From positions 1 through 64,000 of the forward strand of contig JAJDAG010000032.1 of the NCBI GenBank assembly GCA_029262005.1: a DNA stretch of 64,000 nt, in the 5' to 3' direction. A model generated the notes under the pieces. It was not told the DNA's origin. It saw only the letters and a program-made list of their open reading frames with translations, and did not search any database. A program made the position numbers and the translations under genes. Numbering within the stretch: position 1 is the first letter of the stretch; each line of letters opens with the position of its first letter. This DNA comes from Candidatus Zhuqueibacterota bacterium (lineage in GTDB: Bacteria > Zhuqueibacterota > Zhuqueibacteria > Oceanimicrobiales > Oceanimicrobiaceae). Shown one piece after another: positions 37,283 to 61,174 of the stretch.

Positions 37283-37294
37283 AGCAGACGATTT

Positions 37295-38647: not shown

Positions 38648-38686
38648 CGCGCCAATAATAACACCACTTTCTGAAAGACATCTGCA

Positions 38687-40823: not shown

Positions 40824-42449
40824 ATGTTGAATTCCATTGCAACAAAGGGTTCTGAGCAGAAAAAAACGCTCGCCATATTGGTTCTTGTGACCATCGCTTC
40901 GGTGCTGGCCAGCCTTTTTATGGTGAATCAGGAGATCTGGTTAGATGATTCCTTTATCTCTTTTCGCTATGCGAAAAACCTGCACAATGGCCTGGGGCTG
41001 GTGTTCAATGCCGGCGAGCGGGTTGAGGGTTACACCAATTTCCTTTGGACGTTGTTTTCTTATGTGGGGATTAAACTTGGCTTCGAGGCAATCAACTTTA
41101 GTCACGCGTTGAGCATTTTCGCGCAAGCCGTAACACTGTATTTAATTTTTACTCTGGGTAATACTGTATCCCGGACCGCCTATTGGGCGCTTCTGGCGCC
41201 GGTGTTTTTGGCTTTCAATGTGGCATTTGTTTCCTACCCGGCAATGGGCATGGAGACCACTTTTTTTACCATGTTGGTTATTCTGGCATTTGTCTGTTTT
41301 TCGCGCAATGTTCACCAAAATGTTCCCGGAGGCCTGGTTGTGGGGGCCATCTTGCTGGGCATTGCATTAACGCGCTTTGACGGCTTCGTGCTGGTTCTGA
41401 TCATGCTGGGTTATCGCGTGCTGGTTGCACGGGAGATCAAAAAGAACATTCCGGTTGTTCTGGTCTTTGTCGTCGGGTTGGCGCTTTACAACTTTTGGCG
41501 CCTGAGCTACTATCCGACACCACTGCCCAATACGTTTTATGCCAAAGTGGGTTTTTCTATGCAGCAGCTATGGCATGGAATGAAATATGTTTTGCACTTT
41601 TTCGTTGACAGCGGCCACTATCTTATTATATTAGGAATTGCATCTCTTCTGCAAAAGCGCATTTCACCGCTGGTCAGATTTGCCGCATGGGTTGTTTCCT
41701 GGCAACTGGTTTATATTATCCTTGTAGGGGGAGACTGGATGCCGTATTTCAGGTTTATCATCCCGGTCTTACCGCTCCTGTTTTTTTTGATGCAGGAAGG
41801 TCTTTGGTCCGTTTTCGAACGCATGAAATCAGTACAACGGACAGGTCGGCTGCCTGTGGCACTGGCGGTGGTAACCTCGCTACTATTTTTTCTATTTGTA
41901 TGCAAACCGCTCGTTGGCGCATCATCGTTTAACCGGCAGATGCGGGGTGGCTTTTTTCGGCCTCTGCACGCACGAACAATCGGACTGTATTTGGATAAAG
42001 CATTGCCTTCAGATTATGTTGTCGCTATCGAATGGGCAGGCATTATGCCCTATTATATGCATCAGCGCGTGTTGGATACGGCCGGCTTGACGGACAGGGA
42101 CATTGTTTTGCAAGACTTTCCAAGCTTTCCAATGGGGCGCGCATCGACGCCTGAATACATTGCCGGCAGGAAACCACACTTAATTGTCACCTGCGCTCAA
42201 ATTTTTGATTCATTGGCAGAGGCTGTGGCCGGCACCACTCGGCGTTTCAGTTTTCTGCCGGAGGGTAATTTTGTTCACGACTATTATGCAACACTGAGTA
42301 GTCCGGGTTCACCCTACAGTGCGCGTATTATGAAGATTAGCGACCAGGCTTATTGGCCGGTTTTGGTGCGACGGGATTTACTGGATTCACAACTCTTTAT
42401 AGAAGGCGATTTGATTGGTAGTAGTAAACAGGAGGAAGGAAAACGATGA
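40824..42449 (+). CDS. AftB-like GT-C glycosyltransferase
   Basis: The 541-residue multi-pass membrane protein has about ten helices. The first loop carries the acidic GT-C motif in [20 protein letters not shown], followed by [17 protein letters not shown]. This wording is typical of the AftB arabinofuranosyltransferase group, which uses decaprenylphosphoryl-arabinose as donor. The DPA pathway genes lie directly upstream, so it is probably the enzyme that consumes that donor, transferring arabinofuranose to a periplasmic glycan. The ATG at 40824 is chosen over 40794, which overlaps the previous gene. It overlaps the SHMT-like gene by 4 bases. Confidence 0.82.
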
Positions 42450-43849
42450 GCGATAAGGTATTGACTGAATTTGTACAACGTGGAATCGAACTTTTGCGTG
42501 AAGGTGACCCGGCACTGCACGGTTTGCTGCACGATGAATATAAGCGTCAGGCCAATGTGTTAACCATGGTGGCCGCTTCTAGCGTGGCGCATCCATCGGT
42601 GCTGATTTGTGAGGCTATGACGCCGGTAAATGTCACTGCGGAAGGGTATCCGGGTGCTCGTTTTCATGCTGGGTGTCCAGTTATTGATAAAATTGAGCAA
42701 CTGGCCATCGACCGGGCAAAAACCGCTTTCAAAGCTCAGTTCGCAAATGTACAAGTACACTCTGCGACGACCGCCAACCAGATTTTGATGTGCAGCCTGC
42801 TCAAGGCCGGCGACACATTGCTCGGGCTTGAGCTGAATTCAGGCGGTCATTTAACCCATGGGGCCAGGCCGTCAATTTCCGGTCAATACTTCAATGCAGT
42901 CGGTTATGCGCTGTGTGAAAACGGCGATATCAATTACGAGCAAGTAGCGCAGTTGGCACGGGAACACAAGCCTAAGCTCATTATCTGCGGAACCACGGCA
43001 TATCCACGCGTCATTGATTTTGCGCGATTCAGAGCCATTGCGGATGAAGTGGGTGCATATCTGCTTGCTGACATTACCCACATCGCAGGCCTTGTTGTTG
43101 CTGGTCTCCATCCAAGTCCGATCGATCATGCGCATTTTACTACCACCTGCACCCATAAGCAACTGTACGGCCCTCGCGGTGGCCTGATCCTGATTGGCAA
43201 AGACCATGACACGATTGCCTCTGACGGAAAAACCCCCCTGTCACAAATGGTACAGCGTGCTGTTTTTCCTTTTTTTCAGGGAGCGCCAAACCTGAATTCA
43301 ATCGCGGCCAAGGCACGCGCTCTGGCACTGATTGTAGAACCGGCGTTTATTGAAGTTGCCAGGCGAATCAAGGCGGACGCGAGCGCTCTGGCCGAATGGT
43401 TCATCGCAAATGGCTATGGCGTAGTGACCGGCGGTACAGATAATCACCTTGTGGTTGTTGATGTTTTTGCAAAAGGAATTACCGGCATTGTCGCTGAAAA
43501 AGCGCTTGAGGATTGCAACATCATAGTTAATAAAAACAGAATCCCCGGTGACCAGAAATCGGCGTTTGTCACCAGCGGCATTCGCATCGGCACCAACAGC
43601 CTGGCCCTGAAAGGGATGGGACCGGAGGAAATGCAGATATGTGGTGCTTTGGTGCATCAAGTTTTGGCCAATGTACAAGCTGTTGACGACAAGAATTACA
43701 CTCTGGATGATTCTGTTCGGCATGAAGTGAGAAGCAAAGTAAAAGAGATGTGTGCTAAATTCCCGATTCCATCTTATCCCGCTATGAACAGCACTGAACA
43801 GCCCTCAGTTTTTCAGGATAGTTTATCAGCAGTGTCGGCCTCTTTGTAA
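42446..43849 (+). CDS. SHMT-like PLP enzyme with altered active site
   Basis: The 467-residue protein aligns along the whole of serine hydroxymethyltransferase. The PLP Lys is 238 in [13 protein letters not shown], and the residues equivalent to E. coli Asp200, His203, His126, Glu57 and Arg363 are kept. Other usually invariant residues differ: the ASEN segment reads AASS, Tyr55 becomes Thr (TAEGYPG), and RYYGG becomes RFHAG, losing Tyr64 and Tyr65. Such changes occur in SHMT relatives that perform transaldolase or alpha-methylserine-type reactions. It is next to a condensation domain and an NRPS, so making an unusual beta-hydroxy or alpha-substituted amino acid is a sensible guess. Confidence 0.85.
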
Positions 43850-43887: not shown

Positions 43888-45468
43888 GTGAGCAGCTTTA
43901 CACAAGACAGAACAAAATTGCTCAGTCAATTGCTGCAGCAAAAGGGCATTACAGGTGCGACAGCAAAGCCAATTCCTCGCAGAGAAAGCGGTGATGCACC
44001 GGTGGCTTCTTTTTTACAGGAAGGCTTGTGGTTTCTGGATCAATTGGATCCTGGAAGGGCTACATACAACGTGCCCGGAGCCACAAGAATCTGTGGCCAC
44101 CTGGATGTCGATGCATTGCAGCGAACTTTGAGCGAGATTGTCAGGCGACATGAAGCGTTACGTACCAGGTTTCGCACTGAGGCTGGAAAGCCGTATCAAG
44201 TGATTTTGCCTGAGTTGCGCGTTGACCTTGAGTGCACGGATCTGGCAAACCTCCCCCTCGAAGAAAGCGAAGCAGAAGTATTGCGCAGAGCCACCGACGA
44301 GGCTCGCAGCGGCTTTGATCTGGCAACCGGTCCCTTATTTCGTTTTGCTTTGCTGCGACTTAAAGCGGATGAGCATGTTCTAATTTTGAATATTCATCAT
44401 ATTGTTACAGACGGCTGGTCCATGGGTGTTTTCACGCGGGAATTGTTTGCTCTTTATGAAGCGTACAGCAAAGGGTTGGCGTCTCCTTTGCCGGAATTGC
44501 CGATTCAATTTTCTGATTTTGCTGTCTGGCAACGCAAGTGGCTGCATGGAGAAAATTTAAACCGGCAGCTTTCTTATTGGCAAAAACAACTGAGAGGCCC
44601 GCTGCCCAATTTGGAATTACCCACAGACAGGCCCCGTCCGGCATTTCAGACACCCGGCGGCAGTCATCTGACAATGAAGCTGTCGGATTCCATGAGTATT
44701 GCCCTGCGAATGCTCACCAAACGTGAGGATTCGACTCTTTTCGAGCTCTTGCTGGCGGCGTTTAATATTTTGCTGCATCACTACTCCGGACAGAAGGACA
44801 TCATCGTTGGGTCGCCGGTGGCAAATCGCAACAGAAAAGAACTTGAGCCACTCATCGGCTACTTTGTAAATATGTTGCCACTTCGCATGGATTTATCGGG
44901 CAATCCGGGGTTTTCACAACTGCTTGAACGCGTCCACAAAGTCACAATGGAAGCGCATGAACATCAGGATTTACCTTTCGCAAAGTTAGTTGAAGAGCTT
45001 GGTCTGGCACGCGATATGAGCAGAAATCCTGTGTTTCAGGCTGAATTTATCTTGCTAACCGAGGAGCACGCACCACCTGTTTATGGTTATGGTTTTCGTT
45101 CGCCCATTCAGGAAGCGCGCCATTTGGCCGGGTTAACTCTAACGCCAATTGATGTTGAAAGTGGTGTTTCCAAATTTGATTTGGTGGTACTGCTGTGGGA
45201 CATGCCCGATGGCATTAGCGGTACTTTTGAGTACAAAGCGGATTTGTTTGATGCGGAAACCATCCAACACATGATGAAGAATTTTGAACTGTTACTCAGT
45301 ATAATTGTTGCGCATCCGGAGATCCACCTGGATACATTCAAAGATAAGCTCGCCGCGCCGCGGCAAAAAGTTGCGGAGTTGGCGCCAAAAAGTCTTAAGC
45401 GTGCAAGTACGCTCAAGTTGAAGAACATCAAACGTAGATCCGCAGTGACCACAAGTTCGGAGGAATAA
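43888..45468 (+). CDS. Stand-alone condensation domain
   Basis: The 526-residue protein is a single NRPS condensation domain with an intact active site, HHIVTDG at residues 170-176, plus a short N-terminal and a basic C-terminal extension. No A or T domain is attached. It lies between the SHMT-like and dioxygenase genes and before the second NRPS, whose own C domain lacks the catalytic His. It may supply the condensation step in trans, or release the peptide onto an amine. Start is GTG at 43888. Confidence 0.92.
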   Translation: MSSFTQDRTKLLSQLLQQKGITGATAKPIPRRESGDAPVASFLQEGLWFLDQLDPGRATYNVPGATRICGHLDVDALQRTLSEIVRRHEALRTRFRTEAGKPYQVILPELRVDLECTDLANLPLEESEAEVLRRATDEARSGFDLATGPLFRFALLRLKADEHVLILNIHHIVTDGWSMGVFTRELFALYEAYSKGLASPLPELPIQFSDFAVWQRKWLHGENLNRQLSYWQKQLRGPLPNLELPTDRPRPAFQTPGGSHLTMKLSDSMSIALRMLTKREDSTLFELLLAAFNILLHHYSGQKDIIVGSPVANRNRKELEPLIGYFVNMLPLRMDLSGNPGFSQLLERVHKVTMEAHEHQDLPFAKLVEELGLARDMSRNPVFQAEFILLTEEHAPPVYGYGFRSPIQEARHLAGLTLTPIDVESGVSKFDLVVLLWDMPDGISGTFEYKADLFDAETIQHMMKNFELLLSIIVAHPEIHLDTFKDKLAAPRQKVAELAPKSLKRASTLKLKNIKRRSAVTTSSEE

Positions 45469-45469
45469 A

Positions 45470-46528
45470 ATGGATACAACCGAGATTAAGAAGATTGGCA
45501 GGAAGCCACTGCCTGGAATCAAACGCAAGAGTGTTTCAGTTTCTCAGGAAAGCTGGGTGAAGACAAGGCCTATGTTTGCGGACAAAAGCATTCCACTGCT
45601 TGTTGAGCCTAATATGGATGGGATGAATCTGGTAGAGTGGGCAGGGAACAACCGCAGCTATGTAGAAGGATTGCTGCGAGAACATCGTGCGCTGCTTTTC
45701 CGGAATTTCAACATCAAGGATGTTGACAAATTTGAAAATTTTATTGTAAACCTGTCCGACGGCGAGCTTCTCGAATACAGAGATCGCACAACGCCGCGGC
45801 ATTCGGAGGGTGGTAAGTCAGAGCACGTTTATATTTCGACAATTTACCCACCGGCTGAAACCATTCATGCCCACAATGAAGGCTCCTACTGGTTACAGTG
45901 GGCAAGAAAACTATTTTTCTGCTGTTTAATTGCTCCGGATGAAGGTGGAGAAACGCCCATTTTTGACGTACGTCGTGTTCATGACCGCATCGACCCGGAA
46001 ATACGGGAACGCTTTATTGAAAAACAGTGGTTACTAGTGCGCAATTACAATGATGGTTTCGGCCTGCCATGGCAAGAGGTTTATCAGACTGAAGACAAAG
46101 CAAAAGTTGAGGCTTATTGCAAGGAAAATAACATAGAAATTGAGTGGGGAGATGACGATCGGGTACGTACGCGCTCTTTGCGCAAAGCCGTGCACACACA
46201 CCCGGATACTGGAGAAAAAGTCTGGTTTAATCACGCTGCGTTTTACCACCACACATCTTTACAGCCGGCCATGCGTGAGGCGCTGCTTGCTGAGTTTTCT
46301 GTTGAAGAGTTACCATACACAACTTTTTACGGAGACGGTTCGCCCATTTCTGATGAGGATGTCGCACATATTCGACAGGCGTATGATGATGAAAAAACAA
46401 AATTTTTGTGGCAGGAAGGCGATGTGATGCTGCTCGACAATACCACTATTGCGCATGCACGAGAGCCGTACAAAGGCGACAGGCGGGTAATTGTCGGTAT
46501 GACGGAACCAATAAGTGATTGTATTTAG
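45470..46528 (+). CDS. TauD/SyrP-like Fe(II)/2-oxoglutarate dioxygenase
   Basis: The 352-residue enzyme has the facial triad: His135 and Glu137 in HAHNEGSYW, and His329 in TIAHAREPYKGDRR, followed by the Arg that binds 2-oxoglutarate. HNE in place of HxD is common in SyrP-type hydroxylases acting on carrier-bound amino acids in NRPS pathways. It overlaps nothing but starts 2 bases after the condensation gene, so the two are probably translated together. The likely reaction is beta-hydroxylation of the residue loaded on one of the NRPS carrier domains. Confidence 0.88.
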   Translation: MDTTEIKKIGRKPLPGIKRKSVSVSQESWVKTRPMFADKSIPLLVEPNMDGMNLVEWAGNNRSYVEGLLREHRALLFRNFNIKDVDKFENFIVNLSDGELLEYRDRTTPRHSEGGKSEHVYISTIYPPAETIHAHNEGSYWLQWARKLFFCCLIAPDEGGETPIFDVRRVHDRIDPEIRERFIEKQWLLVRNYNDGFGLPWQEVYQTEDKAKVEAYCKENNIEIEWGDDDRVRTRSLRKAVHTHPDTGEKVWFNHAAFYHHTSLQPAMREALLAEFSVEELPYTTFYGDGSPISDEDVAHIRQAYDDEKTKFLWQEGDVMLLDNTTIAHAREPYKGDRRVIVGMTEPISDCI

Positions 46529-46560: not shown

Positions 46561-49500
46561 ATGAGTTCTGAGCAAGTCGAAGGTTTTAGGCTATCACCTC
46601 AACAAAAACACATCTGGTTGCAGCAGGATAGTGACTCGCAAGCTGCCTATCGTGTTCAGGGTACTTTGAAAATCGCCGGTAACATAGATCAGGAAATTCT
46701 TGGCCAGGCACTGACATTTGTTGTGCAACGCTATGAAATTCTCAATACGACGTTTCATTTACTCCCCGGCCTGACCGTTCCGGTTCAGGTGATTAATGAG
46801 CCCAATGGCACAGTGTACAATGAACACGATTTAGCAAATCTTGATTCTGATGAACAAGCCGCCAGAGCGACTGCCCTTCTCGACAATGCTCGGAAGGCAA
46901 CACCAGAGTGGGAGGGTGGCCCGCTTTTGCACATTGAAAAAGTGCAACTCGCGCCGGAGCTTATGTTGCTGCATTTGAGTCTACCTGCTATGTGTGCCGA
47001 TGCAGTCTCCCTTGCGAACTTAACTCAAGAAATCAGCCAGGCATATTCCGCTATTCTTGATGGCGGCGCGGTGGAGGCTGAAGAGCCTCTGCAATTTGCC
47101 GATGTGGCGGAATGGCAAAATGAAATTCTGGCATCTGAGGATGGCGAAAAGGAGACAGAATTCTGGTATCGGAAAATGCTAGCAGCGCCGGCTGCTTCCA
47201 TGATGCCATTTGAAAAGCAAGTCAATGCGGATGCCGTGTTTGCCCCGCGTTCAGTAAGTCGATTTTTGCAGTCAAATGTTGTTGCAAAAATTGATGAGAT
47301 TGTGGCCGGAAACAAGGTTTCACCGGCCGCATTTTTCCTTGCTTGCTGGCAGATATTGTTGCATCGGCATACCGGCCAGTCAGAGTTGATGTTTGGTGTT
47401 GGCTGCGACGGTAGAACCGCGGATGAACTGGTTGACGCGGTTGGTCCCTTAACAAAGTACCTGCCCCAGCCCGGACTCCTTCATGAGGATATACCCTTTC
47501 CCGATGTTTTAGCCTCCGTGGAAAAGTCGTTGGCGGAAGCGCTTGATCGTCAGGAGTTTTTTTGCTGGGAACAGTTTGGCACAACAGCCGACAGTGACCT
47601 GGCAATCGGGTACTTTCCCCTTAGTTTTGACTACGTTGAGCAAGCTGCGACGCAGCAGCAGGGTGATATTTCATTTTCGGTTGAAAACCACCAGTATGTT
47701 TGTCTTGAAAGATTTCACCTGAAGCTTCAGTGTGAACGGCGTGAAGATGGGCTCTCAATGGAATTTTATTACGACTCCAGCCGTTTTGAAAACAAAGCAA
47801 TCGAACGTCTGTCCGAACAATTTAACCAGTTGCTGACCAGCATTCTGGCTTCCCCTGCTGCGGCTATTGGTAGTTTTAACGTATTGAGTGAATCGGAGAG
47901 AACGCAGCTTCTTGTTTCTTTCAACGAGAGTAAGCATGATTTTCCGGACGGCCGACTTATCCATGAGATGATTGAAGAACAGGCTGAAAAATACCCTGAT
48001 AATTTGGCCGTTATATTTGCGGATCAAGAAATATCTTATTCCGAGTTGGACAGAAGAGCCAACCAAATGGCAAATCACTTGCACAAACTTGGGATTGGAC
48101 CAGACGTGATGGTCGGCTTGTTCATGGAGCCTTCCATCGAAATCATGGTGGGGCTGCTGGGCATTCTCAAGGCAGGAGGTGCTTACGTCCCCATTGATCC
48201 GGAATACCCGCAGGAACGACTTGACTTTATTATGGAAGATACGCAGGCGCCCGTTCTGTTGACACAGAAACGCCTGGTCGGAGACACTCGCGCCCACACG
48301 GCAAAGATAATTTGTCTTGACACAGAATGGGACAGTATTTCCGGTGAGAGCGAAGCTCGGCCCACCAATGAAATGACTGCGGAGAACTTGGCCTACGTTA
48401 TTTATACCTCAGGTTCCACAGGAAAACCCAAAGGTGTCCTGGTAACGCATCGAAATCTGGTTCACTCAACTTATGCGCGTGTCCTCTATTATCCCGAGCC
48501 GGTGGGACGCTACTTGTTGTTGTCCTCCTTTTCTTTTGATAGTTCTGTGGCCGGCATTTTCTGGACGTTAATTCAGGCAGGAGCCCTTGTTTTGCCTGCT
48601 GCAGGTACCCAAAGGGATCCGGGCAGCATATCAAATTTGATAGCCACGAATAAAGTCACGCACACTTTGTGCCTGGCCTCTCATTATGCTCTGATAATGA
48701 CGGAAACAGACAAGCAAAAGATGGCTTCACTGAAAACAAATATCGTGTCTGGGGAGGTCTTTTCCATGGCACTGGTAAACCGGCATGACGAGCTTGCACC
48801 ACAGTCAAAGCTTTATAATGAATACGGGCCGACAGAAGCCTCTGTTTGGTGCATTGTCTTTGACTGCCATGATCCATTTTCAGGGAATCAGGTTCCAATT
48901 GGGAAACCCATTGCCAATACGCAAATATATGTACTGAACTCACATATGCAGCCGGCTCCCATCGGCGCCCCCGGTGAAATTTACATCGGCGGTGTTGGCG
49001 TCACAAATGGTTATCTGAACAGGGCCGAACTGACCGAAGAGCGATTTGTACCGGCGCCATTTAGCAGCGATCCGAATGCAAAACTTTATAGATCCGGCGA
49101 TGCAGCTCGCTTTCTCGCAGATGGAAATATTGAGTTTTTAGGCCGGGATGATGATCAAGTAAAAATTCGTGGCTACCGCATCGAACTTGGTGAAATCGAA
49201 GCCGTGCTTGGGCAACATCCGAACATTCGGGAAGTTGTTGTTCTGGCGCGTGAAGACACACCGGGGGAAAAACGCCTGGTTGCTTATTTGGCCACAAAAC
49301 AAAAAGAAGCGCCAACAGTTGGCTCTCTGCGGGAATATCTGAGTGAGAGAATGCCGGATTACATGGTGCCCACTGCATTTGTTTTTATGGCGGAACTGCC
49401 CAGGACACCGATTGGCAAACTTGATCGAAAGGCGTTGCCTGTACCGACCAAGGCCCGCCCCAACCTTGAATCGGTTTTCGTTGCTGCAAGGACACCGGTA

Positions 49501-49803
49501 GAGGAAATTCTTACCGGCATCAGCGCCGAAGTGCTCGGCATTGACGAAGTTGGTGTTGATGACAATTTTTTTGAATTAGGTGGCCATTCGATCATAATCA
49601 CCCAACTTGCCGCCCGGGTTCGGGACACTCTGGCTGTTGAAGTGCCATTGCGCACTATTTTTGAGGCGCCTACAGTCTTCGGCTTGACAGAAGCAATTTT
49701 TCAACATTCAGCGGATCGCGAAAAGGTCGAGAAAACGGCTGAACTCGCGCTCAAAGTAGCGCAAATGTCAGAGGATGACGCCGAAGCAATGTTGACGCAA
49801 TAA
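46561..49803 (+). CDS. Nonribosomal peptide synthetase: degenerate C - A - T
   Basis: This is a 1080-residue synthetase. In the C domain the HHxxxDG motif is replaced by L141-P142-AMCA-D147-A148, so both histidines are missing. The A domain starts near residue 465, has YTSGSTGKPKG near 614, NEYGPTEASVW at A5 and GKLDRKALP near 952. The carrier Ser is 1010 in ELGGHSIII. The product ends about 60 residues later with no thioesterase or reductase domain. By-eye specificity residues are D-S-A-C-I-S-E-V-W-K; I cannot name the amino acid. The C-terminal tail (MSEDDAEAML) resembles that of the first NRPS (LSDEEVKAML), perhaps a docking helix. Confidence 0.93.
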   Translation: MSSEQVEGFRLSPQQKHIWLQQDSDSQAAYRVQGTLKIAGNIDQEILGQALTFVVQRYEILNTTFHLLPGLTVPVQVINEPNGTVYNEHDLANLDSDEQAARATALLDNARKATPEWEGGPLLHIEKVQLAPELMLLHLSLPAMCADAVSLANLTQEISQAYSAILDGGAVEAEEPLQFADVAEWQNEILASEDGEKETEFWYRKMLAAPAASMMPFEKQVNADAVFAPRSVSRFLQSNVVAKIDEIVAGNKVSPAAFFLACWQILLHRHTGQSELMFGVGCDGRTADELVDAVGPLTKYLPQPGLLHEDIPFPDVLASVEKSLAEALDRQEFFCWEQFGTTADSDLAIGYFPLSFDYVEQAATQQQGDISFSVENHQYVCLERFHLKLQCERREDGLSMEFYYDSSRFENKAIERLSEQFNQLLTSILASPAAAIGSFNVLSESERTQLLVSFNESKHDFPDGRLIHEMIEEQAEKYPDNLAVIFADQEISYSELDRRANQMANHLHKLGIGPDVMVGLFMEPSIEIMVGLLGILKAGGAYVPIDPEYPQERLDFIMEDTQAPVLLTQKRLVGDTRAHTAKIICLDTEWDSISGESEARPTNEMTAENLAYVIYTSGSTGKPKGVLVTHRNLVHSTYARVLYYPEPVGRYLLLSSFSFDSSVAGIFWTLIQAGALVLPAAGTQRDPGSISNLIATNKVTHTLCLASHYALIMTETDKQKMASLKTNIVSGEVFSMALVNRHDELAPQSKLYNEYGPTEASVWCIVFDCHDPFSGNQVPIGKPIANTQIYVLNSHMQPAPIGAPGEIYIGGVGVTNGYLNRAELTEERFVPAPFSSDPNAKLYRSGDAARFLADGNIEFLGRDDDQVKIRGYRIELGEIEAVLGQHPNIREVVVLAREDTPGEKRLVAYLATKQKEAPTVGSLREYLSERMPDYMVPTAFVFMAELPRTPIGKLDRKALPVPTKARPNLESVFVAARTPVEEILTGISAEVLGIDEVGVDDNFFELGGHSIIITQLAARVRDTLAVEVPLRTIFEAPTVFGLTEAIFQHSADREKVEKTAELALKVAQMSEDDAEAMLTQ

Positions 49804-49862
49804 AACGATTGAAGCAGATCGTTTAGGAGGAATGTGGAGCGAAAAACCGCTCTTCCACTTTT
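49803..49862 (+). terminator. Two hairpins between the second NRPS and the AlaX-like gene
   Basis: AAACGAT at 49803-49809 pairs with ATCGTTT at 49818-49824, directly after the stop. Further on, GTGGA plus GCG at 49834-49841 can pair with CGC plus TCCAC at 48-50 and 54-58 (49848-49858) around an AAAAAC loop, with TTTT after it. The second could act as a weak terminator or partial attenuator before the next gene, which has its own strong RBS (CCAGGAGGAAGG). Confidence 0.35.
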
Positions 49863-49904
49863 AACTTGTAATTTGCGGTTCCGCCGCCAGGAGGAAGGAA
49901 AGTT

Positions 49905-51119
49905 ATGGCAACCACCCTGTTGTACCATCAGGACGACTATTTGACCAATTTTGAGGCGAAGGTTCTCTCAGTGGACAAAGAAACGCAGTCCATCATTCTG
50001 GACGCGACTGCATTTTATCCCACTGGTGGGCACCAGCGATGTGATCAAGGGCAGATTAAGAAAGGCCGTCGTAACTACCTTGTCATAACGGATGTCAAGA
50101 AAGATGATTCCGGCGTGGTATATCATCGTTATCTTGCCACCAAGGGGGCTATTGATGCGGGCGATACCATTGCAGGAACCATTCATTGGGAACGGCGTCT
50201 CCGGCACATGCAATTACATACTTCACAACACATTTTCACACGATTTGCGCAAGATAGATTTGGCATCTGCACCGGTCGTGCTGACTTTGGCCCTGATGGT
50301 GGGCTTGCTGTTATGGAGAAGCCACTTACCTGGGAGGAGATACTGCTTCTTGAAGATGATGTCAACCGCGTCATTGCCGCTGGGCGGCGCATATCACGTT
50401 CCATCGATTCGGAAGGGGTGATCACCATAACCGTCGACCAGGTTGATGACAGTTTTTGCGGTGGCACCCATGTACGCTCCACTTCTGAAATAGGTCTTTT
50501 TAAAGTGACTTCTGTGCAGAGCAAGAACATTTACTATGAAGTCGGGGACAGAGCACGCCAGGTGGCAATCAGGATGGCCAATGACGCAATGGAGGCTGCC
50601 GCCGTGTTGAATGTTTCAGATACACGTGGGTTGTCCGGGCAGACCAGTATGTTACTTGCGGAAAAAGAGGCAGCTGATAGCAGGCTTCACGAGTGGAAAG
50701 AGAATACGACTCGCGAACAAATCACAAAAGCCAACCAAACAGCCATTTCATTGAACGACAAAACAACAGCTTTCACGTTGGACTTGTCGCACATGAACAC
50801 CAAGGCAGTAAAAAATCTCGTCAAGGCTGATTTGCTGAATGAGCAGCAGGTGTGGGTGTGTCTGGCTGAAAGAAGGAACTTAATTATTTCCAGCGCTTCG
50901 GCAGACGTTAATGCCAGGAATGTACTGCAAAAACTGATCGATGAATGGGGTATGTCTGGAGGTGGGAACCCGGGCCTGGCTCAGGGTGGGCCGGTTCCGG
51001 ATCAAATTCGGGATCCCCTTGGCAGCGTAACCAGTTTGCTACTAAACGGAAACGGACGGCAGCAGGAACCTGTTGCTCAATTACTAGTGGATATTGAAGA
51101 AGGAGGAGGCGTAGTATGA
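49905..51119 (+). CDS. AlaX-like alanyl-tRNA editing hydrolase
   Basis: The 404-residue protein matches the editing domain of AlaRS as a free protein. The zinc site is visible as HTSQH near residue 105 (HxxxH) and CGGTH near residue 183 (CxxxH). A helical stretch follows, then a DHHA1/C-Ala-like C-terminal domain (GMSGGGNPGLAQGG). AlaX proteins hydrolyse Ser- or Gly-mischarged tRNA-Ala. Within an NRPS locus it may protect translation from a serine- or alanine-like precursor; that is inference. An RBS CAGGAGGAAGG precedes the ATG. It overlaps the radical SAM gene as ATGA. Confidence 0.9.
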   Translation: MATTLLYHQDDYLTNFEAKVLSVDKETQSIILDATAFYPTGGHQRCDQGQIKKGRRNYLVITDVKKDDSGVVYHRYLATKGAIDAGDTIAGTIHWERRLRHMQLHTSQHIFTRFAQDRFGICTGRADFGPDGGLAVMEKPLTWEEILLLEDDVNRVIAAGRRISRSIDSEGVITITVDQVDDSFCGGTHVRSTSEIGLFKVTSVQSKNIYYEVGDRARQVAIRMANDAMEAAAVLNVSDTRGLSGQTSMLLAEKEAADSRLHEWKENTTREQITKANQTAISLNDKTTAFTLDLSHMNTKAVKNLVKADLLNEQQVWVCLAERRNLIISSASADVNARNVLQKLIDEWGMSGGGNPGLAQGGPVPDQIRDPLGSVTSLLLNGNGRQQEPVAQLLVDIEEGGGVV

Positions 51120-52132
51120 GAACTGAAACAACTGTTGGCGTTTATGAAGAAAAACCAAGTTTTGCGCATCTTATTCTGACCATGGCTTGCAATCTAACTT
51201 GCCCGCAGTGCTTTGTGGATGCAGGTTGCAAAATGGACAATGAGATGGACACGCTCGATCTCATGAAAGTAGCAGACGATCTCGTGAAAATGGGTATTCA
51301 CACCGTGCACGTTGAAGGTGGGGAAGCGCTACTAAAACCGGATGCCGTTGAGGTGTTGGAACGATTGAGTGAATTGCGCGATCTGTTGCTGGTTACAAAT
51401 GGAACGCTGGTAACACAGGAAGTTGCTGAACGGCTGGCTGCCACCGGGATGAAGAAAGTTGCCTTGTCACTGGATGGCGCTACCGCAGAAACGCATGACT
51501 TTTTTCGACCGGGAACATTCGACAAAGTGGTTGATGCCATTCGTTATTTGCGCGAAGCCGGGCTTGGAGTCAGGATAAGCACCACATTGATGAAGCCGAA
51601 CTTCAAGGAAGCTAACCTTTTGTTGGAGAAGTGTCTTGATTGGGGCGTGCAAATCCTAAATTATGATGCTTTTGACATGATCGGCAGGGGCATGGAACAC
51701 CCGGAGTTACAGCTCTCCGGCAGTGATTGGAAGCACATTAGTTATGAATTATTTCCGCGGGCCATTGAAGCTGCTTCGCAAATGCAGGTTAAGGTGGCTG
51801 TCCCAAGTAAATATGTTGAGTTGCTGGATATTGATACCGAGGACCCGCATTTTGATTGGATCTCTTGCACATCCGGCGTTTCGCAACTTTCCATTCTGCC
51901 AAACGGAAATGTCATTCCTTGTTTTGCGCTTCTGACAATGCCTGAGTACACCGCCGGCAATGTTCGGTCGGAACCGTTAAATGATATTTGGCACAAGTCA
52001 CCGTACATGCGCTACTACCGAACGGTTGGCATGGACCGTCGTTGTCCAATGGGATATGAGGGGCACCTGTTTTTTAGCAACACACGATGCAGCGAAGATG
52101 AACCTGTTGGTGAGGACAAAGTCAGATGTTAG
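51116..52132 (+). CDS. Radical SAM/SPASM-type protein
   Basis: The 338-residue enzyme has the canonical CNLTCPQC cluster motif near residue 25, a GGEALL motif near residue 70 and a C-terminal cysteine-bearing region (ISCTSGVSQLSILPNGNVIPC; then DRRCPMG and a final C), which suggests an auxiliary SPASM-like cluster. Such enzymes modify peptides or small carrier-bound molecules. ATGA overlap with the AlaX-like gene implies tight coupling. The target may be the NRPS peptide or a sugar; no RiPP precursor is visible. Confidence 0.88.
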   Translation: MRTETTVGVYEEKPSFAHLILTMACNLTCPQCFVDAGCKMDNEMDTLDLMKVADDLVKMGIHTVHVEGGEALLKPDAVEVLERLSELRDLLLVTNGTLVTQEVAERLAATGMKKVALSLDGATAETHDFFRPGTFDKVVDAIRYLREAGLGVRISTTLMKPNFKEANLLLEKCLDWGVQILNYDAFDMIGRGMEHPELQLSGSDWKHISYELFPRAIEAASQMQVKVAVPSKYVELLDIDTEDPHFDWISCTSGVSQLSILPNGNVIPCFALLTMPEYTAGNVRSEPLNDIWHKSPYMRYYRTVGMDRRCPMGYEGHLFFSNTRCSEDEPVGEDKVRC

Positions 52133-53358
52133 ATGCGCCGAGACTTACCAAAGTTGATCTTTCAGGGAAACGCGTTCTTGTAACCGGTGGTACCGGCTTT
52201 ATTGGTGGCCGGTTAATCGAGCGCCTGATTTTAGACTGCGGCGCCGAGGTGCGGTCACTGGTTCGCAATTTAGCCAGGGTCTCCCGCATCGCCCGGTTTC
52301 CTGTTGAGTTTGTTCAAGGGGATGTTCTTGATTCGCAAAGTGTCAAGAAGGCCGTTGACGGCTGTGATATTATCATTAATTGCATGGCAGGCACGGATGG
52401 TAGCGCTGCAAAACAACGGCAAGTTAACTTTGCAGGCGTGCGCAATGTGTTTGATGCGGCGTTGCAGGCAAAAGTATCGCGAGTCGTTCATGTCAGTACC
52501 GTCATGGTTTATGGCGCTACCCCGGATGGTATTCTCGACGAAACAGCGCCCAGAAATTACAACGGCGATGTCTATTCCGACAGCAAACTCGACGCTGAAA
52601 AACTTGCATTTGAATATGCTGAGCAACATGGTTTGCCGGTCACTGTTTTGCAACCCACCGTTGTGTACGGTCCGTTCGGCCCGGCATGGACGACAAGAAT
52701 AATAAATGATGTAAAATCAGGCCGCGTCATTCTTGTGGAAAAGGGAGAGGGTTTGTGCAATGCTGTTTACCTGGACGATATTGTGAGCGCCCTGCTTCTG
52801 GCTTCAGTAAAAGATGAGGCAGTTGGCGAAGCGTTTTTGATTTCCGGGCAGGAGCCGGTCAAATGGGATCAATTCTACGCCGGCTATGAACGCATCGCCG
52901 GTTGTACCAGCACAAGCAGAGTCTACCTGAGCATGTCTGAAGCGGAAGAAATCTTCAACAATCTCTTCAAAAAGAAAAGTCTGGTAACTGAATCTCTGAA
53001 CATTTTGCTTGAGAGTGCTGATTTGCGCTGGCGGGTTCGCAGCTCCAGCGAGGTCGATGCGTCTCTGCGATTGGCCAGAAAGTTAATCCCGGCACCGATT
53101 CGGATGGCCTTAAAAAACAAGTTGACCAGGAGTTCAAATGGAACCCCTGTTCCCGTGCCAAATAAGCACGAAAAACCCATCCTTCCGGCTCACCCTTCAG
53201 CCTTGCGAAATCAGGCAGCCAAGACACATGTTTGCATTGACAAGGCGAAACGTCTGTTAGGTTATGAACCGGCTTTTGATTTTGCTGCAGGAATGCAGCG
53301 TACAGAACAATGGGCCAGATGGGCGCGATTGGTGAACTCAAATGTCGGTGAGAAATGA
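52126..53358 (+). CDS. NAD-dependent epimerase/dehydratase (extended SDR)
   Basis: The 410-residue protein has the extended-SDR cofactor motif VTGGTGFIGGRL near residue 22 and the catalytic Tyr-Lys pair in YSDSKLDAEK, with HVSTVMVYG before it. The C-terminal part is longer than the usual 310-330 residues and ends in a typical KRLLGYEPAFDF segment. The extension of about 80 residues between 290 and 370 is basic and poorly ordered. It probably modifies a nucleotide sugar. It overlaps both neighbours. Confidence 0.85.
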   Translation: MLDAPRLTKVDLSGKRVLVTGGTGFIGGRLIERLILDCGAEVRSLVRNLARVSRIARFPVEFVQGDVLDSQSVKKAVDGCDIIINCMAGTDGSAAKQRQVNFAGVRNVFDAALQAKVSRVVHVSTVMVYGATPDGILDETAPRNYNGDVYSDSKLDAEKLAFEYAEQHGLPVTVLQPTVVYGPFGPAWTTRIINDVKSGRVILVEKGEGLCNAVYLDDIVSALLLASVKDEAVGEAFLISGQEPVKWDQFYAGYERIAGCTSTSRVYLSMSEAEEIFNNLFKKKSLVTESLNILLESADLRWRVRSSSEVDASLRLARKLIPAPIRMALKNKLTRSSNGTPVPVPNKHEKPILPAHPSALRNQAAKTHVCIDKAKRLLGYEPAFDFAAGMQRTEQWARWARLVNSNVGEK

Positions 53359-54418: not shown

Positions 54419-55210
54419 ATGAACAAAAATATGGCCATGCGGAATTTTTGGGATGAACTTGCGATTGATGGTACATGGACATCCCATTATGATGGCAAAA
54501 CAGATTTACGAACCTATAATTTTTACACCCGGCGTGAGGCTGTGCTGAATCTCCTTAAGAATGAAGGCGATTTTGAGCGCATGCTTGACATTGGTTGCGG
54601 TAGTGGTGATTACGAGGATGTCGTTAAGCGGCACAACAGTGTTTATTTCGGGATAGACTATGCAGCCGAAATGATTGTCAAGGCAGTTGAGCGCCATGAA
54701 GGGCAGCCGGCAAACGGCAATTTTCTTGCCGGTTCAGGGGCTCAATTGCCATACAATGACAATATGTTCGATCTGGTGATTGCAATGGGGTATATCGAGT
54801 ATTTTGAAAATCCCAATGTAACCATGAACGAAATCCGCCGTGTGCTCAGACCAGGCGGCACATTGGTTATGCAGTCCTATAAACCGGAATTACTTTCATG
54901 GCTGGATCAACGATTCTTTGATCCTTTTCTTTCGTTTATAGGCCGGGGCAGGCCGAAACCTAAATTGCCGGATTCGTGGGTTAATAAGCAATACTCCAGA
55001 GTGCAAATGGACGCATTGGTGCAGCATTTTGACTTTACAATCAAAGATTATACTTACAATAATTTTTATTCACTTCCCGGCGTCATGCGACTACGATATC
55101 CTAATTTGTACATTAAGCTATCAGAGGCAATCACACGTGTCTGCCCGAGATTTGCTGGTTTTCTTGCAACCAACTATGTTGGCAAGTATCAACTGAATAA
55201 AGACGAATAA
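54419..55210 (+). CDS. Class I SAM-dependent methyltransferase
   Basis: The 263-residue enzyme shows MLDIGCGSGDYEDV near residue 59 and an RPGGTLVMQS strand after the substrate region. The C-terminal half is hydrophobic and may recognise a lipid-linked substrate. Preceded by GGGAGTTTT before the ATG. It differs from the methyltransferase at 20105. Its stop shares one base with the next start codon. Confidence 0.87.
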   Translation: MNKNMAMRNFWDELAIDGTWTSHYDGKTDLRTYNFYTRREAVLNLLKNEGDFERMLDIGCGSGDYEDVVKRHNSVYFGIDYAAEMIVKAVERHEGQPANGNFLAGSGAQLPYNDNMFDLVIAMGYIEYFENPNVTMNEIRRVLRPGGTLVMQSYKPELLSWLDQRFFDPFLSFIGRGRPKPKLPDSWVNKQYSRVQMDALVQHFDFTIKDYTYNNFYSLPGVMRLRYPNLYIKLSEAITRVCPRFAGFLATNYVGKYQLNKDE

Positions 55211-57114
55211 TGGCAAAAATCACCCAGCCTGTAGTAACCATCATCATACCGTGCTATAACCACGGGCATTATTTGCAAGAGTGTCTTTCGAGTCTTCAGG
55301 CACAAAAATATGAGCACTGGCAAGCTATTGTTGTTGACGACGCATCGCCTGACCAAGCACTTATTCAATCCGTCATGGATGAGGTAAAGGACAAACGTAT
55401 TCGTCTGGTTCGGCATGAAAAAAACAGTGGTCTGGCTGCTTCCAGAAATACTGGATTTGTTGAAAGCGCTACAGAACTGGTGTTGCCTGTGGATGCTGAT
55501 GACAAAATCGAACCTGACTGTCTTGAGAAACTTGTACCGGTAATCACCGGGGATGATGCAGTTGATTGCGTTTATCCTGATGTGCGTTTGTTTGGCCGCA
55601 GGAATGATATTTTGGAGTTTCCAGGGCCGGGACCGGGGAAAAAAATATTGCATCCAAAGGATACGATTCCCGGGGCAGGGACTATGATGCGCCGCCGCCT
55701 TTGGGAACGATTGGGTGGATACGACGATGGCAAGGAACTGCGCCGGGGCAGAGAAGATTTTGAGTTCTGGATTAGGGCATTCAATAATGGTTGCGTGGCC
55801 AAACGCGTAGAAACGCCTTTGTATTTGTATCGAATTGCACATACTTCCATGAGTATTGAGTGTTACCATGAAGACAATATCGTGGCCAAGTACATTCACG
55901 ACAAAAATCGCGATGTGTTTTCCTCAAGACGCGAGGCCAATGAATTCCTCAGTTATTTTTACCAAAGAGCGGCTCTTGCTTCTTATGACAAGCATTTTCA
56001 TGGCAAGGCTTTCAGGCTGGCCTTTGATGCCTTTCGATTTGCACCTTCAAAGGATCGTTTGATCTCTGTGGGAAAGACCGCATTACCGCCGGCTGTTGTA
56101 CGCGGCCTGCGACAAGGAAAAATCCGCAGACATATTCCATTTGCCGGATATCCATTGAAGGGAGGCCAACGATTCAGGCCATTTTTTATCATTGGTGTTG
56201 GGCGTAGCGGCAACACGCTTTTTCGCAGAATTCTGACAGCACATTCAAAAATATATATCCCGCCGGAAACATTTGTTTTAGGTGCCTGCATTCAGAAATT
56301 CAAGCGTTTCGGCTCAAAAATGAGCTGGCCCGACCTGGTTCATTTCACCTTTTCTCAATTTGAGTTTCATCCTGAGTTCCACACATTTGATGTCTGGCTC
56401 GGGCCGCTGGTGAACCGACTGCTTAACCTGCCGCGTCAGCAGCGCAATCTGGCTTTTCTCTTGAACAGCTTTTATAAGTACCACGCGTCCATGCATGAAC
56501 AGCCGATGCAGCGTTGGGGCGATAAAACACCGATGAACTCATTGGATGACACACTTATTCGGGGTGATTTCCCCAGTCAGATTGGCAAGGGTGTGCCACA
56601 AACTTTAGTGCGACTGCTGAAAGTCTTTCCGGATGCACAATTCTTGTACATTTATCGCGATGGTTGTGACGTGGTCAACTCCTTTTTACGCGGCGGGTTT
56701 GTGGCAAATCTTGAGGAGGCAGCCAAGCGTTGGTTACACACAAATCGTCAAGCACGAAATTTTGTGGCGCGTTACCCCGGGCAGTGTCATTCGGTACGTT
56801 ATGAAGATTTGGTATCTACTCCTGAAAAAACAGTGACTGCAGTTTGTGACTTTCTGGATTTGGATTTCGAACTGGAAATGCTCTCTTCAAATGAAACAGC
56901 GTCTCAGTTGGGGGATGTTCCAGCCTGGGTTTGGCATAAGCAAGTCAATGAACCCATTAATCCTGCCAATCCCGGTAAAGGCCGTCTCTATTTTTCCGAC
57001 GAGCAAAAAATGCTTTTACAAAACATAATTGGTGAAGAATTAGCGCTGCTTGGCTATCAGCAAGCCACGTCAGATATACTTTCAAAAAACGACAAAGTCA
57101 AACGAGGCAAATGA
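55210..57114 (+). CDS. GT2 glycosyltransferase - sulfotransferase fusion
   Basis: Residues 1-270 form a GT2 glycosyltransferase (VTIIIPCYNHGHYL; VVDDASPD; VLPVDADD as the DxD motif; GREDFEFWIRAF). Residues about 325-630 are a PAPS-dependent sulfotransferase with the 5'-phosphosulfate loop GVGRSGNTLFRRIL near residue 330 and the 3'-phosphate region IYRDGCDVVNSF near residue 481. A single chain could add a sugar and sulfate it. The fusion is in one frame with no sign of a frameshift. It overlaps the Gfo/Idh gene as ATGA. Confidence 0.9.
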   Translation: MAKITQPVVTIIIPCYNHGHYLQECLSSLQAQKYEHWQAIVVDDASPDQALIQSVMDEVKDKRIRLVRHEKNSGLAASRNTGFVESATELVLPVDADDKIEPDCLEKLVPVITGDDAVDCVYPDVRLFGRRNDILEFPGPGPGKKILHPKDTIPGAGTMMRRRLWERLGGYDDGKELRRGREDFEFWIRAFNNGCVAKRVETPLYLYRIAHTSMSIECYHEDNIVAKYIHDKNRDVFSSRREANEFLSYFYQRAALASYDKHFHGKAFRLAFDAFRFAPSKDRLISVGKTALPPAVVRGLRQGKIRRHIPFAGYPLKGGQRFRPFFIIGVGRSGNTLFRRILTAHSKIYIPPETFVLGACIQKFKRFGSKMSWPDLVHFTFSQFEFHPEFHTFDVWLGPLVNRLLNLPRQQRNLAFLLNSFYKYHASMHEQPMQRWGDKTPMNSLDDTLIRGDFPSQIGKGVPQTLVRLLKVFPDAQFLYIYRDGCDVVNSFLRGGFVANLEEAAKRWLHTNRQARNFVARYPGQCHSVRYEDLVSTPEKTVTAVCDFLDLDFELEMLSSNETASQLGDVPAWVWHKQVNEPINPANPGKGRLYFSDEQKMLLQNIIGEELALLGYQQATSDILSKNDKVKRGK

Positions 57115-58145
57115 GTAAATTAAAAATAGCAGTCATTGGTTGCGGCGCTGTGGCAGAGGCCCATCTTGCCGCGATGGCAAATTCGGAAGCAGTTGAAGTG
57201 AGCATGCTCGTCGATAAACTTTTGAGCAGGGCAGAGGACATGGCCAGACGCCATGCTGTGCCGAAAGCAGTTGAGAATTTTCATGATGTAATCGGTAAAG
57301 TAGATGCTGCCATCGTTGCTTTGCCGCACCATTTACATGCCCCCATTGCAACCGAGCTATTGCAAAAGGGTGTCCATGTTCTGGTTGAAAAACCGATGGC
57401 GCTCAATGTCGCTGAGTGTGATGCCATGATCAAAGCTGCTCATCAGGCTAAAGTTGTGTTGGCAGTAGGGCAGCTTCGTCGTTATTTTTACTCATCAAAA
57501 TTTGTGAAAAGTCTAATTGAAACCGGTGCACTGGGCAAAATTGTCCATTTTGAGTTTCGTGAGGGTGTGGAATACAGTTGGCCTGCTGCATCTGACTTCA
57601 CTTTCCGTAAGGAATCCGGTGGCGGTGTCCTGGCAGATCAGGGTGCACACACGCTGGACTTGCTGCTTTGGTGGTTAGGCGATTACGAGAATTTCGAATA
57701 CCGGGATGATTCCGCCGGGGGTGTGTCCGCAGATTGTTTACTCAATATTCGCCTTAAATCAGGGGCAGAAGGAACGGTCGAGTTGAGCAGAATGCGGGAT
57801 TTGAGCAACACCTGTATTGTCGAGGGCACAAAGGGCAGGATTCAAGTTGATTCACAGTTCAACTCTGAGGTGAAGCTCTGGCTCGCCGGGCAAGAGGCCG
57901 TACTTACGGGAAGACCCCTTCCTTCGGGTATTAAGAAGGAGGATCCCATTGGCCTTTTCGCGCAGCAAATAGAAGATTTTTCTGCTGCGATTCAAAATAA
58001 GCGAAATCCGTTTGTAACAGGCGAGGAAGCACGAAAAGCAGTCCAGCTAATTAATGAATGTTATGAAAATCGCCAACCACTTGAATTTGAGTGGAACGCC
58101 TTTTCTGTCCCTTCAACGAATGAAATAGCAGCCAATGAAAATTGA
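57111..58145 (+). CDS. Gfo/Idh/MocA family oxidoreductase
   Basis: The 344-residue NAD(P)-dependent enzyme has the nucleotide-binding start VIGCGAVAEAHL and the family motif EKPMALN near residue 94. The following genes (DegT aminotransferase, second Gfo/Idh, hexapeptide transferase) form a WbpB/WbpE/WbpD-like set. In that pathway the enzyme oxidises C3 of UDP-GlcNAc-uronate. Which of the two Gfo/Idh genes does so here cannot be decided from sequence alone. It overlaps the following gene by 11 bases. Confidence 0.88.
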   Translation: MSKLKIAVIGCGAVAEAHLAAMANSEAVEVSMLVDKLLSRAEDMARRHAVPKAVENFHDVIGKVDAAIVALPHHLHAPIATELLQKGVHVLVEKPMALNVAECDAMIKAAHQAKVVLAVGQLRRYFYSSKFVKSLIETGALGKIVHFEFREGVEYSWPAASDFTFRKESGGGVLADQGAHTLDLLLWWLGDYENFEYRDDSAGGVSADCLLNIRLKSGAEGTVELSRMRDLSNTCIVEGTKGRIQVDSQFNSEVKLWLAGQEAVLTGRPLPSGIKKEDPIGLFAQQIEDFSAAIQNKRNPFVTGEEARKAVQLINECYENRQPLEFEWNAFSVPSTNEIAANEN

Positions 58146-59238
58146 AAAAAGTACCATTCCCCTGGTCAATCTCGGGGCGCAATACGCCGACATTCAGGCT
58201 GAAGTAAGTGTTGCAATAAATCGAGTCTTAAGCCGTGGTGACTTTATTCTCGGCGAGGATCTTGCTTTGTTCGAAAAGGAATTTGCGCACTACTGCGGCA
58301 CGGAACATACCATTGGTTGTGGCAGCGGTACCGATGCACTGCATCTGGCGTGCCGTGCGCTCGGCCTCGGACCTGGCGATGAAGTCATTTTGCCTGCTTT
58401 CACTTTTGTGGCAACAGCGCTTGGGGTTACGCTTGCCGGTGCCACGCCGGTTTTGGTTGATGTAGACCCCATGAATGCCCTGATGGATTTAAATAAAGTC
58501 GCGGCGGCAATCACACCCAAAACGCGCGCGATCATGCCTGTTCATTTATATGGTCAGTGCTATGATATGCCGGCTTTGCTTGCCTTGGCCAAAGAACACG
58601 GTCTTTATGTAATTGAAGATGCCGCGCAGGCACACGGGGCTGAGTGTGAAGGGAAAAGAGCAGGTTCCTTCGGCGATGCAGGCTGCTTCAGTTTTTATCC
58701 GGGGAAAAATTTGGGCGCTTACGGCGATGGTGGTGCGATTACCGTTAACAATCAAGAGCTGGCCGACAAATTGAGGTTGCTTGGCAATTGGGGGTCGCGC
58801 AAAAAATATCATCACGAAGAGCCCGGCCTTAATAGCCGGCTGGATACGGTACAAGCTGCAATTCTGCGTGTTAAGCTGCACCGGCTTGATGGCTGGAATC
58901 AGAAGCGCAGGCAACTGGCAAGTGCATACTCAGAACTGTTAAGTGGCATCGAGAATATTCAGTTAACCAGGCATGATGGTGATTCTGTTTACCATCTTTA
59001 TGTCATTCGTCTGCAGAATCGCGATAATGTTTTGCGGCAGCTACATGAAGCGGGTATTCAGGCGGGGATACATTACCCGTTTGCAGTGCATGAATTGAAG
59101 GCCTACGAATGGTTGGGATATACGGCCGGTACTTTTCCCGTTGCTGAAGATTGGGCTCGCCGTTGCCTTAGTTTGCCTATTTATGCAGAGATGCCGGAGG
59201 AAGCCGTTTCCAGGGCAGCAGAGATATTGAAAGCTTAA
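58135..59238 (+). CDS. DegT/DnrJ/EryC1 family sugar aminotransferase, second copy
   Basis: The 367-residue PLP enzyme has GCGSGTDALHLA near residue 62, PVHLYGQCYDM, IEDAAQAHGAE and SFYPGKNLGAYGDGG with the PLP lysine. It is close to WbpE/WlbC-type 3-amino transferases in motif wording and neighbourhood. The likely reaction is transamination of a 3-keto sugar nucleotide made by an adjacent Gfo/Idh enzyme. Confidence 0.92.
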   Translation: MKIEKSTIPLVNLGAQYADIQAEVSVAINRVLSRGDFILGEDLALFEKEFAHYCGTEHTIGCGSGTDALHLACRALGLGPGDEVILPAFTFVATALGVTLAGATPVLVDVDPMNALMDLNKVAAAITPKTRAIMPVHLYGQCYDMPALLALAKEHGLYVIEDAAQAHGAECEGKRAGSFGDAGCFSFYPGKNLGAYGDGGAITVNNQELADKLRLLGNWGSRKKYHHEEPGLNSRLDTVQAAILRVKLHRLDGWNQKRRQLASAYSELLSGIENIQLTRHDGDSVYHLYVIRLQNRDNVLRQLHEAGIQAGIHYPFAVHELKAYEWLGYTAGTFPVAEDWARRCLSLPIYAEMPEEAVSRAAEILKA

Positions 59239-59266
59239 CACTGATTTTGCAACAGGAGAGAGAGCA

Positions 59267-60388: not shown

Positions 60389-60454
60389 GTAGGCATGTTC
60401 AACATTTGTAGCTTATATAGATAATTTTGACTCAATAAATTGGTTGGAGAACCT

Positions 60455-61174
60455 ATGTCTGAAACAAATATCACGGAAAATGCAGCAGGACATGAAAAGT
60501 TCAGAAAAGTCGATCCGAACACGGGATGCATTTACTATCTCTACCCAAATGTAAAACTAGGCAAGAGCCCTACAATTTTTCAAAATGCAATTATCGGCTT
60601 CCCGCCGCGAGGCAAAGAAATTGGGGAGCTGGAGTTGGTTATCGGTGACAATGCCGTGCTTCGGCCATTCACGACGATTTATGCAGGCAACCAGATAGGT
60701 GATGATTTTCAAACAGGCCATTGTGTGATGATGCGCGAAGGCAACCAAATCGGCAACAATGTTATCCTTGGCACAAATGCTGTGCTTGAATGCAACAACA
60801 AGTTCGGGGATAACATTACTTTTCACACCCTGTCTTGCGCCGGAAACGCTACTTTGGAAACCAATTGCTTTATTGGTCCGCATGTCATTATGCTTGACGA
60901 TCCCCACCCGATTTGCCCGAAATATAAAGAATGTAAAGGCGGCGCGGTGGTTAAATCTTATGCCCGCATTGGCGGCAATGTAACCCTTCTACCAGGTGTA
61001 ATTGTTGGGCGGGATACGCTAATCGGGGGTGGTAGCACGGTTACACGCGACATTCCGGATCATGCTGTTGCAGCCGGCAACCCCGCCAAAGTATTGACAA
61101 CTGTCCAGGAGCAAAAGTGTTATCCGGGTTTTTACGATGTGCCTTATGAGTGGCTGGATGGCGCGAACCTTTAA
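60455..61174 (+). CDS. Hexapeptide-repeat acyltransferase (WbpD-like)
   Basis: The 239-residue protein consists of left-handed beta-helix hexapeptide repeats (VIGDNAVLRPF; IGNNVILGTNAVLE; ARIGGNVTLLPGVIVG; LIGGGSTVTRDIPDHAVAAGNPAK). Such proteins acetylate amino groups of sugar nucleotides as trimers. GGAGA at 60446-60450 supports the ATG at 60455 over the upstream TTG at 60440. It closes the aminotransferase set; a 202-base gap without a supported gene follows. Confidence 0.9.
   Translation: MSETNITENAAGHEKFRKVDPNTGCIYYLYPNVKLGKSPTIFQNAIIGFPPRGKEIGELELVIGDNAVLRPFTTIYAGNQIGDDFQTGHCVMMREGNQIGNNVILGTNAVLECNNKFGDNITFHTLSCAGNATLETNCFIGPHVIMLDDPHPICPKYKECKGGAVVKSYARIGGNVTLLPGVIVGRDTLIGGGSTVTRDIPDHAVAAGNPAKVLTTVQEQKCYPGFYDVPYEWLDGANL

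Follow-up and report, generated by a model that had tools for sequence, protein, structure and literature searches.

The 64,000-nucleotide stretch of DNA analyzed here (below, the window) carries, between an NRPS gene and an SDR gene, a gene for a free AlaX-type editing protein that is translationally coupled to a gene for a radical SAM/SPASM enzyme (Table 1). The identity of the AlaX protein, its intact motifs, the coupling, the absence of the pair from a sister locus and the presence of a separate housekeeping editing set in the genome were all computed directly. Our leading reading, which we put forward tentatively and hold to be possible, if a little short of probable, is that the two genes were acquired together and that AlaX protects translation from a non-standard amino acid of the pathway.

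Table 1. Features of the window (positions of the whole stretch)
Feature	Position	Strand	Remarks
Polysaccharide export, Wza-type	6389		
Sugar transferase/dehydratase	13798		
NRPS C-A-MT-T	23209–27195	+	A-domain pocket DMYHLGMMD
SHMT-like enzyme	42446–43849	+	Thr/His at the Tyr55/Tyr65 positions
Stand-alone condensation-domain protein	43888–45468	+	
TauD/TfdA-type dioxygenase	45470–46528	+	
NRPS C-A-T	46561–49803	+	A-domain pocket DSALISEVW(K)
NRPS-AlaX gap, 101 bases	49804–49904	+	Small hairpin and AlaX Shine-Dalgarno sequence
AlaX-L-type aminoacyl-tRNA editing hydrolase	49905–51119	+	ATG start, 404 aa
Radical SAM/SPASM enzyme, 338 aa	51116–52132	+	CX3CX2C at residues 25–32; later Cys 251, 269, 310, 325, 338
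SDR (NAD-dependent epimerase/dehydratase)	52126–53358	+	Directly after radical SAM gene
Amino-sugar genes	57111–61174		

A strong Shine-Dalgarno sequence (AGGAGGAAGG) lies just 5′ of the AlaX-type open reading frame. Residues 1 to ~228 of its product form an editing core with complete zinc motifs, HTSQH (residues 105–109) and CGGTH (residues 185–189), followed by a divergent DHHA1-like C-terminal part in which the SGGG motif is retained. In the Pfam search, tRNA_SAD scored above its cut-off, only the end of the AlaRS core tRNA-synt_2c was matched (model positions 476–552), the aminoacylation (class II catalytic) domain was absent, and the DHHA1 match, at 24.2 bits, fell just under the cut-off of 25.9. 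The best NCBIfam matches were archaeal AlaRS and AlaX-M, both far under the equivalog cut-offs (122.2 bits for the AlaXM equivalog NF040865, whose curated cut-off is 300). Archaeal AlaRS and AlaX-M are also the closest solved sequences, PDB matches to AlaRS/AlaX being found at E-values of 1e-16 to 1e-17, far beyond chance, and identity to any protein found is at most about 34%. The predicted model is confident for residues 1–228 (blocks near 90, with two lower at 71) and of low confidence after residue 229; Foldseek matched it to AlaRS/AlaX with an E-value of 2e-19, archaeal AlaRS coming first, followed by AlaX-M 9IUW, 2E1B and C. perfringens 3KEW. The description of a free editing hydrolase with complete HxxxH/CxxxH zinc residues, given in the first-pass annotation, holds.

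In its editing-core fold (Foldseek E-values of 1e-16 to 1e-18, TM to target about 0.8), its HxxxH and CxxxH zinc motifs and its AlaX-L length with a putative DHHA1-like part, the window protein resembles AlaX-L/AlaX-M of P. horikoshii (2E1B), P. furiosus (9IUW) and C. perfringens (3KEW). It differs from them in being only about 25–34% identical, in its long isolated branch, in the exopolysaccharide/NRPS setting and radical SAM coupling of its gene, and in the stretch FYPTGGHQ, where GGHQ replaces GGGQ/SGGQ and the Gln is retained. In the remaining AlaX rows, this Gln follows a Gly or, in many of the Asgard proteins, an Asn (GNQ), and GGHQ is also present in one Asgard protein, L031; on these alignments, GGHQ versus GGQ is a matter of one residue and not an absolute feature of the AlaX family. 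The changed loop would fit an altered specificity. We conclude that the 404-aa protein is an AlaX, probably of the AlaX-L subtype, whose C-terminal part is divergent and whose loop differs at one residue.

Five tRNA_SAD proteins are encoded in the genome: the window protein, a ThrRS-sized protein (648 aa), an AlaRS (877 aa) with HTSTH and CGGTH, an AlaX-M (239 aa) and an AlaX-S-sized protein (143 aa). Since the genome has its own AlaRS, ThrRS, AlaX-M and AlaX-S-sized protein, the window AlaX is not a housekeeping copy. The 143-aa protein (G000:C14:52948-53076, L154), found besides AlaX-M, makes the free-editing set of this one genome unusually rich. In trees of 33–54 AlaX/AlaRS rows, bacterial AlaX-L, Asgard AlaX-L and AlaX-M are well-supported groups, and the window protein, on a long branch, was placed with none of the three. 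The only candidate for a sister is an Asgard MAG protein, L031, which shares with it GGHQ and a GPDxGL stretch. Support for this join falls to 90/95 in a reduced tree, placement without L031 is unsupported (56/7), and the join may reflect long-branch attraction between the two sequences.

The start of the radical SAM gene lies within the AlaX stop (ATGA, a 4-base overlap) and is preceded by GGAGGAGG, which bears out the earlier claim of translational coupling, as the order NRPS, AlaX, radical SAM bears out that of a place between the two. The radical SAM gene in turn overlaps the SDR gene by 7 bases. The gap upstream of AlaX is possibly the start of a separate translation or transcription unit; its hairpin did not exceed shuffled sequences in stability (z −1.1), and promoter and terminator scans were not clearly above chance. 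No close homologue of the radical SAM enzyme was present in the relatives in the phylum, plasmids or viral contigs searched, and its single-sequence structure model was unusable (mean pLDDT 45). Its identification as a sulfatase-maturing enzyme is not favoured, there being no such model among the best 25 NCBIfam matches.

The window from ~6.4 to 62 kb is an exopolysaccharide-type locus with NRPS, sulfation and amino-sugar genes, which further holds several glycosyltransferases, sulfatases and an arylsulfotransferase. The term “biosynthetic cluster” used in the first-pass annotation is right in that NRPS modules are embedded here, but Wza-type export, sugar transferases, glycosyltransferases and amino-sugar genes make this mainly an exopolysaccharide/capsule locus and not a classical antibiotic cluster. 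At its head, the N-terminus of the 5787–6362 product looks, by eye, like a NusG/UpxY-type antiterminator. Consecutive genes for a UbiA-HAD fusion, an FAD-binding oxidase and an SDR (35813–39433) resemble the DprE1/DprE2 decaprenyl-phosphoryl-arabinose pathway, and a single protein (55210–57114) consists of a family 2 glycosyltransferase fused to a sulfotransferase domain.

A genome from the same family but another genus (G001) contains, in the same order and direction, the lone C protein (61% identity), TauD (59%), the NRPS C-A-T (53%) and the SDR (59%), with sugar genes intervening between the lone C and TauD; the evidence is a single draft contig whose end falls within the SDR gene. There, the SDR gene comes directly after the NRPS gene, within fewer than 100 bases, and AlaX and radical SAM genes are both absent. 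The NRPS adenylation pockets are nearly identical (DSALISEVW in the window, DSVLIAEVW in G001), and the two enzymes therefore probably have the same substrate. Elsewhere in G001, no close copy of AlaX or of the radical SAM enzyme was found, none scoring above housekeeping level. Since the two genes are missing together from the matching NRPS-SDR junction, they behave as one present/absent cassette, gained here or lost in G001. Among about 80 genomes of the phylum there is no close homologue of either, so gain would be the simpler reading. The earlier view that primary metabolism does not explain AlaX is upheld by this junction, by the placement of the protein outside the three AlaX groups of the trees, and by the separate AlaRS, AlaX-M and small AlaX-like protein of the genome.

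Replacement of SHMT Tyr55 and Tyr65 by Thr and His is the signature of alpha-methylserine hydroxymethyltransferases (PMC6411801), and it is in this pair of residues that the SHMT of the locus, 6 kb from AlaX, resembles these enzymes; its activity is a prediction from sequence. The second SHMT of the genome, 41–43% identical, has Tyr/Tyr at the same positions (segment NKYAEGYPGKRYYGG). SHMTs of this type also adjoin NRPS genes in Streptomyces, in Pseudonocardia and on a plasmid of Staphylococcus epidermidis. In Streptomyces and in the sister genomes G004 and G054, the neighbouring adenylation pocket is of the DM(Y/F)(H/N)LGM type, as in the window protein starting at 23209. Because the Thr/His SHMT pairs with such pockets across genomes, the locus is predicted to build, probably, alpha-methylserine into its product, the C-A-MT-T NRPS being the probable enzyme to load it. 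A serine/alanine-like amino acid is in any case plausible in the locus, since the SHMT carries the Thr/His pair.

Thr/His SHMT genes beside DM(Y/F)(H/N)LGM-type NRPS genes, as in the window and in L025, L026, L027 and L103–L105, may serve as a genomic marker of alpha-methylserine incorporation. The 28-kb plasmid of S. epidermidis FDAARGOS_1361 (L024) holds an NRPS cluster with SHMT, anthranilate synthase components, a phosphopantetheinyl transferase and a YcaQ-family crosslink-repair glycosylase; it looks like a cluster for a DNA-alkylating product with self-resistance.

The AlaX-radical SAM cassette is known from one genome. Neither an AlaX-radical SAM nor an AlaX-NRPS neighbourhood occurred among about 40 other AlaX genes, a sample of distant AlaX only, and relatives with matching modules are without AlaX, so the recurring neighbourhood anticipated earlier was not found. 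When 84,980 genomes were scanned with the window AlaX protein sequence, there were 17 pattern matches, none of them a relative. A degenerate FYP[x]GGHQ scan gave 31 matches, with one real AlaX among them (Asgard L031, which has no biosynthetic neighbours), and none in viral contigs; class and phylum searches retrieved only AlaX proteins about 30% identical. All four of the haloarchaeal plasmid AlaX-L genes examined (L093–L096, locus position ~7000) adjoin folP and lie among folate/one-carbon genes, with formate-THF ligase, formyl-THF deformylase, formate dehydrogenase and, once, glyA as neighbours. This setting suggests that free AlaX-L can be linked to serine/glycine one-carbon metabolism.

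In the mechanism that we favour, AlaX would be a true AlaX-L-type deacylase that edits aminoacyl-tRNA in trans, and its gene would have entered the NRPS-containing exopolysaccharide locus together with the radical SAM/SPASM gene, as a two-gene cassette that now separates the NRPS gene from the SDR gene. The locus would make or consume small Ser/Ala-like amino acids outside the standard set. These would include the alpha-methylserine supplied by the SHMT and, probably, another product whose formation depends on the radical SAM enzyme. Once such an amino acid had been loaded onto tRNA by AlaRS or a related synthetase, the AlaX zinc site would hydrolyse the mischarged ester, keeping the unusual amino acid out of proteins. 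That the zinc site is intact and that the pair behaves as a cassette both point to a real deacylase whose job is tied to the radical SAM step. Alpha-methylserine alone does not explain AlaX; we infer that the co-occurrence of the two genes is best accounted for by a product or intermediate that depends on the radical SAM enzyme.

The motifs and fold, the housekeeping set, the isolated branch, the G001 junction, the GGHQ loop and the SHMT signature all count in favour of pathway protection, as do the precedent of FthB and, as an independent parallel, the haloarchaeal plasmid AlaX-L among folate/one-carbon genes. Against it stand the lack of a second AlaX-radical SAM pair in the searches above, the single draft contig behind the G001 absence, and the genomes in which the same SHMT type and sulfated-glycan genes occur without this AlaX. 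Alpha-methyl amino acids, moreover, are usually poor synthetase substrates.

FthB is a fluorothreonyl-tRNA deacylase dedicated to its pathway, encoded in the 4-fluorothreonine locus of Streptomyces cattleya (PMC7162832, PMC11295145). The likeness to the window is functional: a tRNA deacylase is encoded along with the enzymes for a toxic analogue of an amino acid, and the pathway includes an SHMT-like transaldolase. The amino acid of FthB is known, whereas that of the window AlaX is predicted from genes. FthB was also considered as an AlaX-like protein; this was dropped, as the literature has it as ProXp-ST1-related, of the INS superfamily, unlike the AlaRS/ThrRS-type editing fold of the window protein, and it remains a functional precedent only. 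A full-text literature search for AlaX and biosynthetic gene clusters yielded nothing beyond a review on synthetases as drug targets.

A general AlaX-L might instead have been carried along into the locus by horizontal transfer, where it would only add to the usual editing of Ser/Gly-tRNA(Ala), for example under high Ser/Gly/one-carbon flux. This would agree with the complete catalytic motifs and ordinary AlaX fold, with the one-carbon/serine neighbours of AlaX-L genes elsewhere and with the nearest tree relative, the Asgard L031, whose GGHQ comes without biosynthetic neighbours; we regard it as rather unlikely, given that AlaRS, AlaX-M and an AlaX-S-sized protein are encoded in the genome besides it and that AlaX is coupled to the radical SAM gene and absent together with it in G001. 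If AlaX protected solely against an amino acid that the SHMT makes or uses, namely alpha-methylserine (or D-alanine/serine in excess), the radical SAM enzyme would be irrelevant; this reading draws on the Thr/His residues at the donor-specificity positions of the SHMT and on its pairing with an unusual A-domain pocket across genomes. It becomes very unlikely because G001, G004 and G054 have SHMTs 70–76% identical to that of the window and no such AlaX; alpha-methylserine alone, then, does not require AlaX, which weakens this narrower version of the protective reading.

Aminoacyl-tRNA could also be a substrate of the pathway, the radical SAM enzyme altering a tRNA-held aminoacyl group that AlaX releases, or AlaX transferring the aminoacyl group to a sugar or carrier-bound intermediate. 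That the two genes are tightly coupled and go missing together, and that the GGHQ loop is altered, is consistent with this, and synthetase-derived biosynthetic enzymes dependent on aminoacyl-tRNA exist, among them AlaRS-like AcmF and IleRS-like SbzA (PMC12945691). AcmF/AcmD (ascamycin) and SbzA share with the window the presence of an AlaRS-related protein in a biosynthetic locus, but AcmF keeps only the aminoacylation and tRNA-recognition domains and in the window AlaX only the editing part is present. The enzymes of this type that are known work through aminoacylation domains or other folds, and the review of such enzymes (PMC12945691) does not mention AlaX; amino acid activation is already provided for by the NRPS modules of the locus, and no cluster-borne synthetase is among the annotated window genes. 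We consider a substrate role quite unlikely. A more specific form, in which AlaX with its altered loop and the radical SAM enzyme would be a new tailoring pair that uses aminoacyl-tRNA as carrier and releases or transfers the aminoacyl group into a sulfated, amino-acid-decorated polysaccharide, is highly improbable; if true, it would mean an editing-domain enzyme working on a radical SAM-modified aminoacyl group. Equally doubtful is recruitment of the AlaX fold as a plain esterase or thioesterase that acts, without tRNA, on a carrier-bound aminoacyl thioester or aminoacylated sugar. The place between NRPS and sugar-tailoring genes and the divergent, long-branched sequence would suit such a role, but every zinc ligand is kept, the DHHA1-like C-terminal part typical of AlaX-L is partly kept, including SGGG, and we know of no precedent for such use of the fold.

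If the protective reading is correct, an AlaRS-type editing enzyme would be serving one pathway instead of general proofreading, and the tRNA-deacylase strategy of FthB would have arisen again in a different fold. It would also indicate which amino acids escape normal proofreading. For genome mining, an extra AlaX gene beside an amino-acid-tailoring enzyme would then mark loci that possibly make translation-toxic amino acids.
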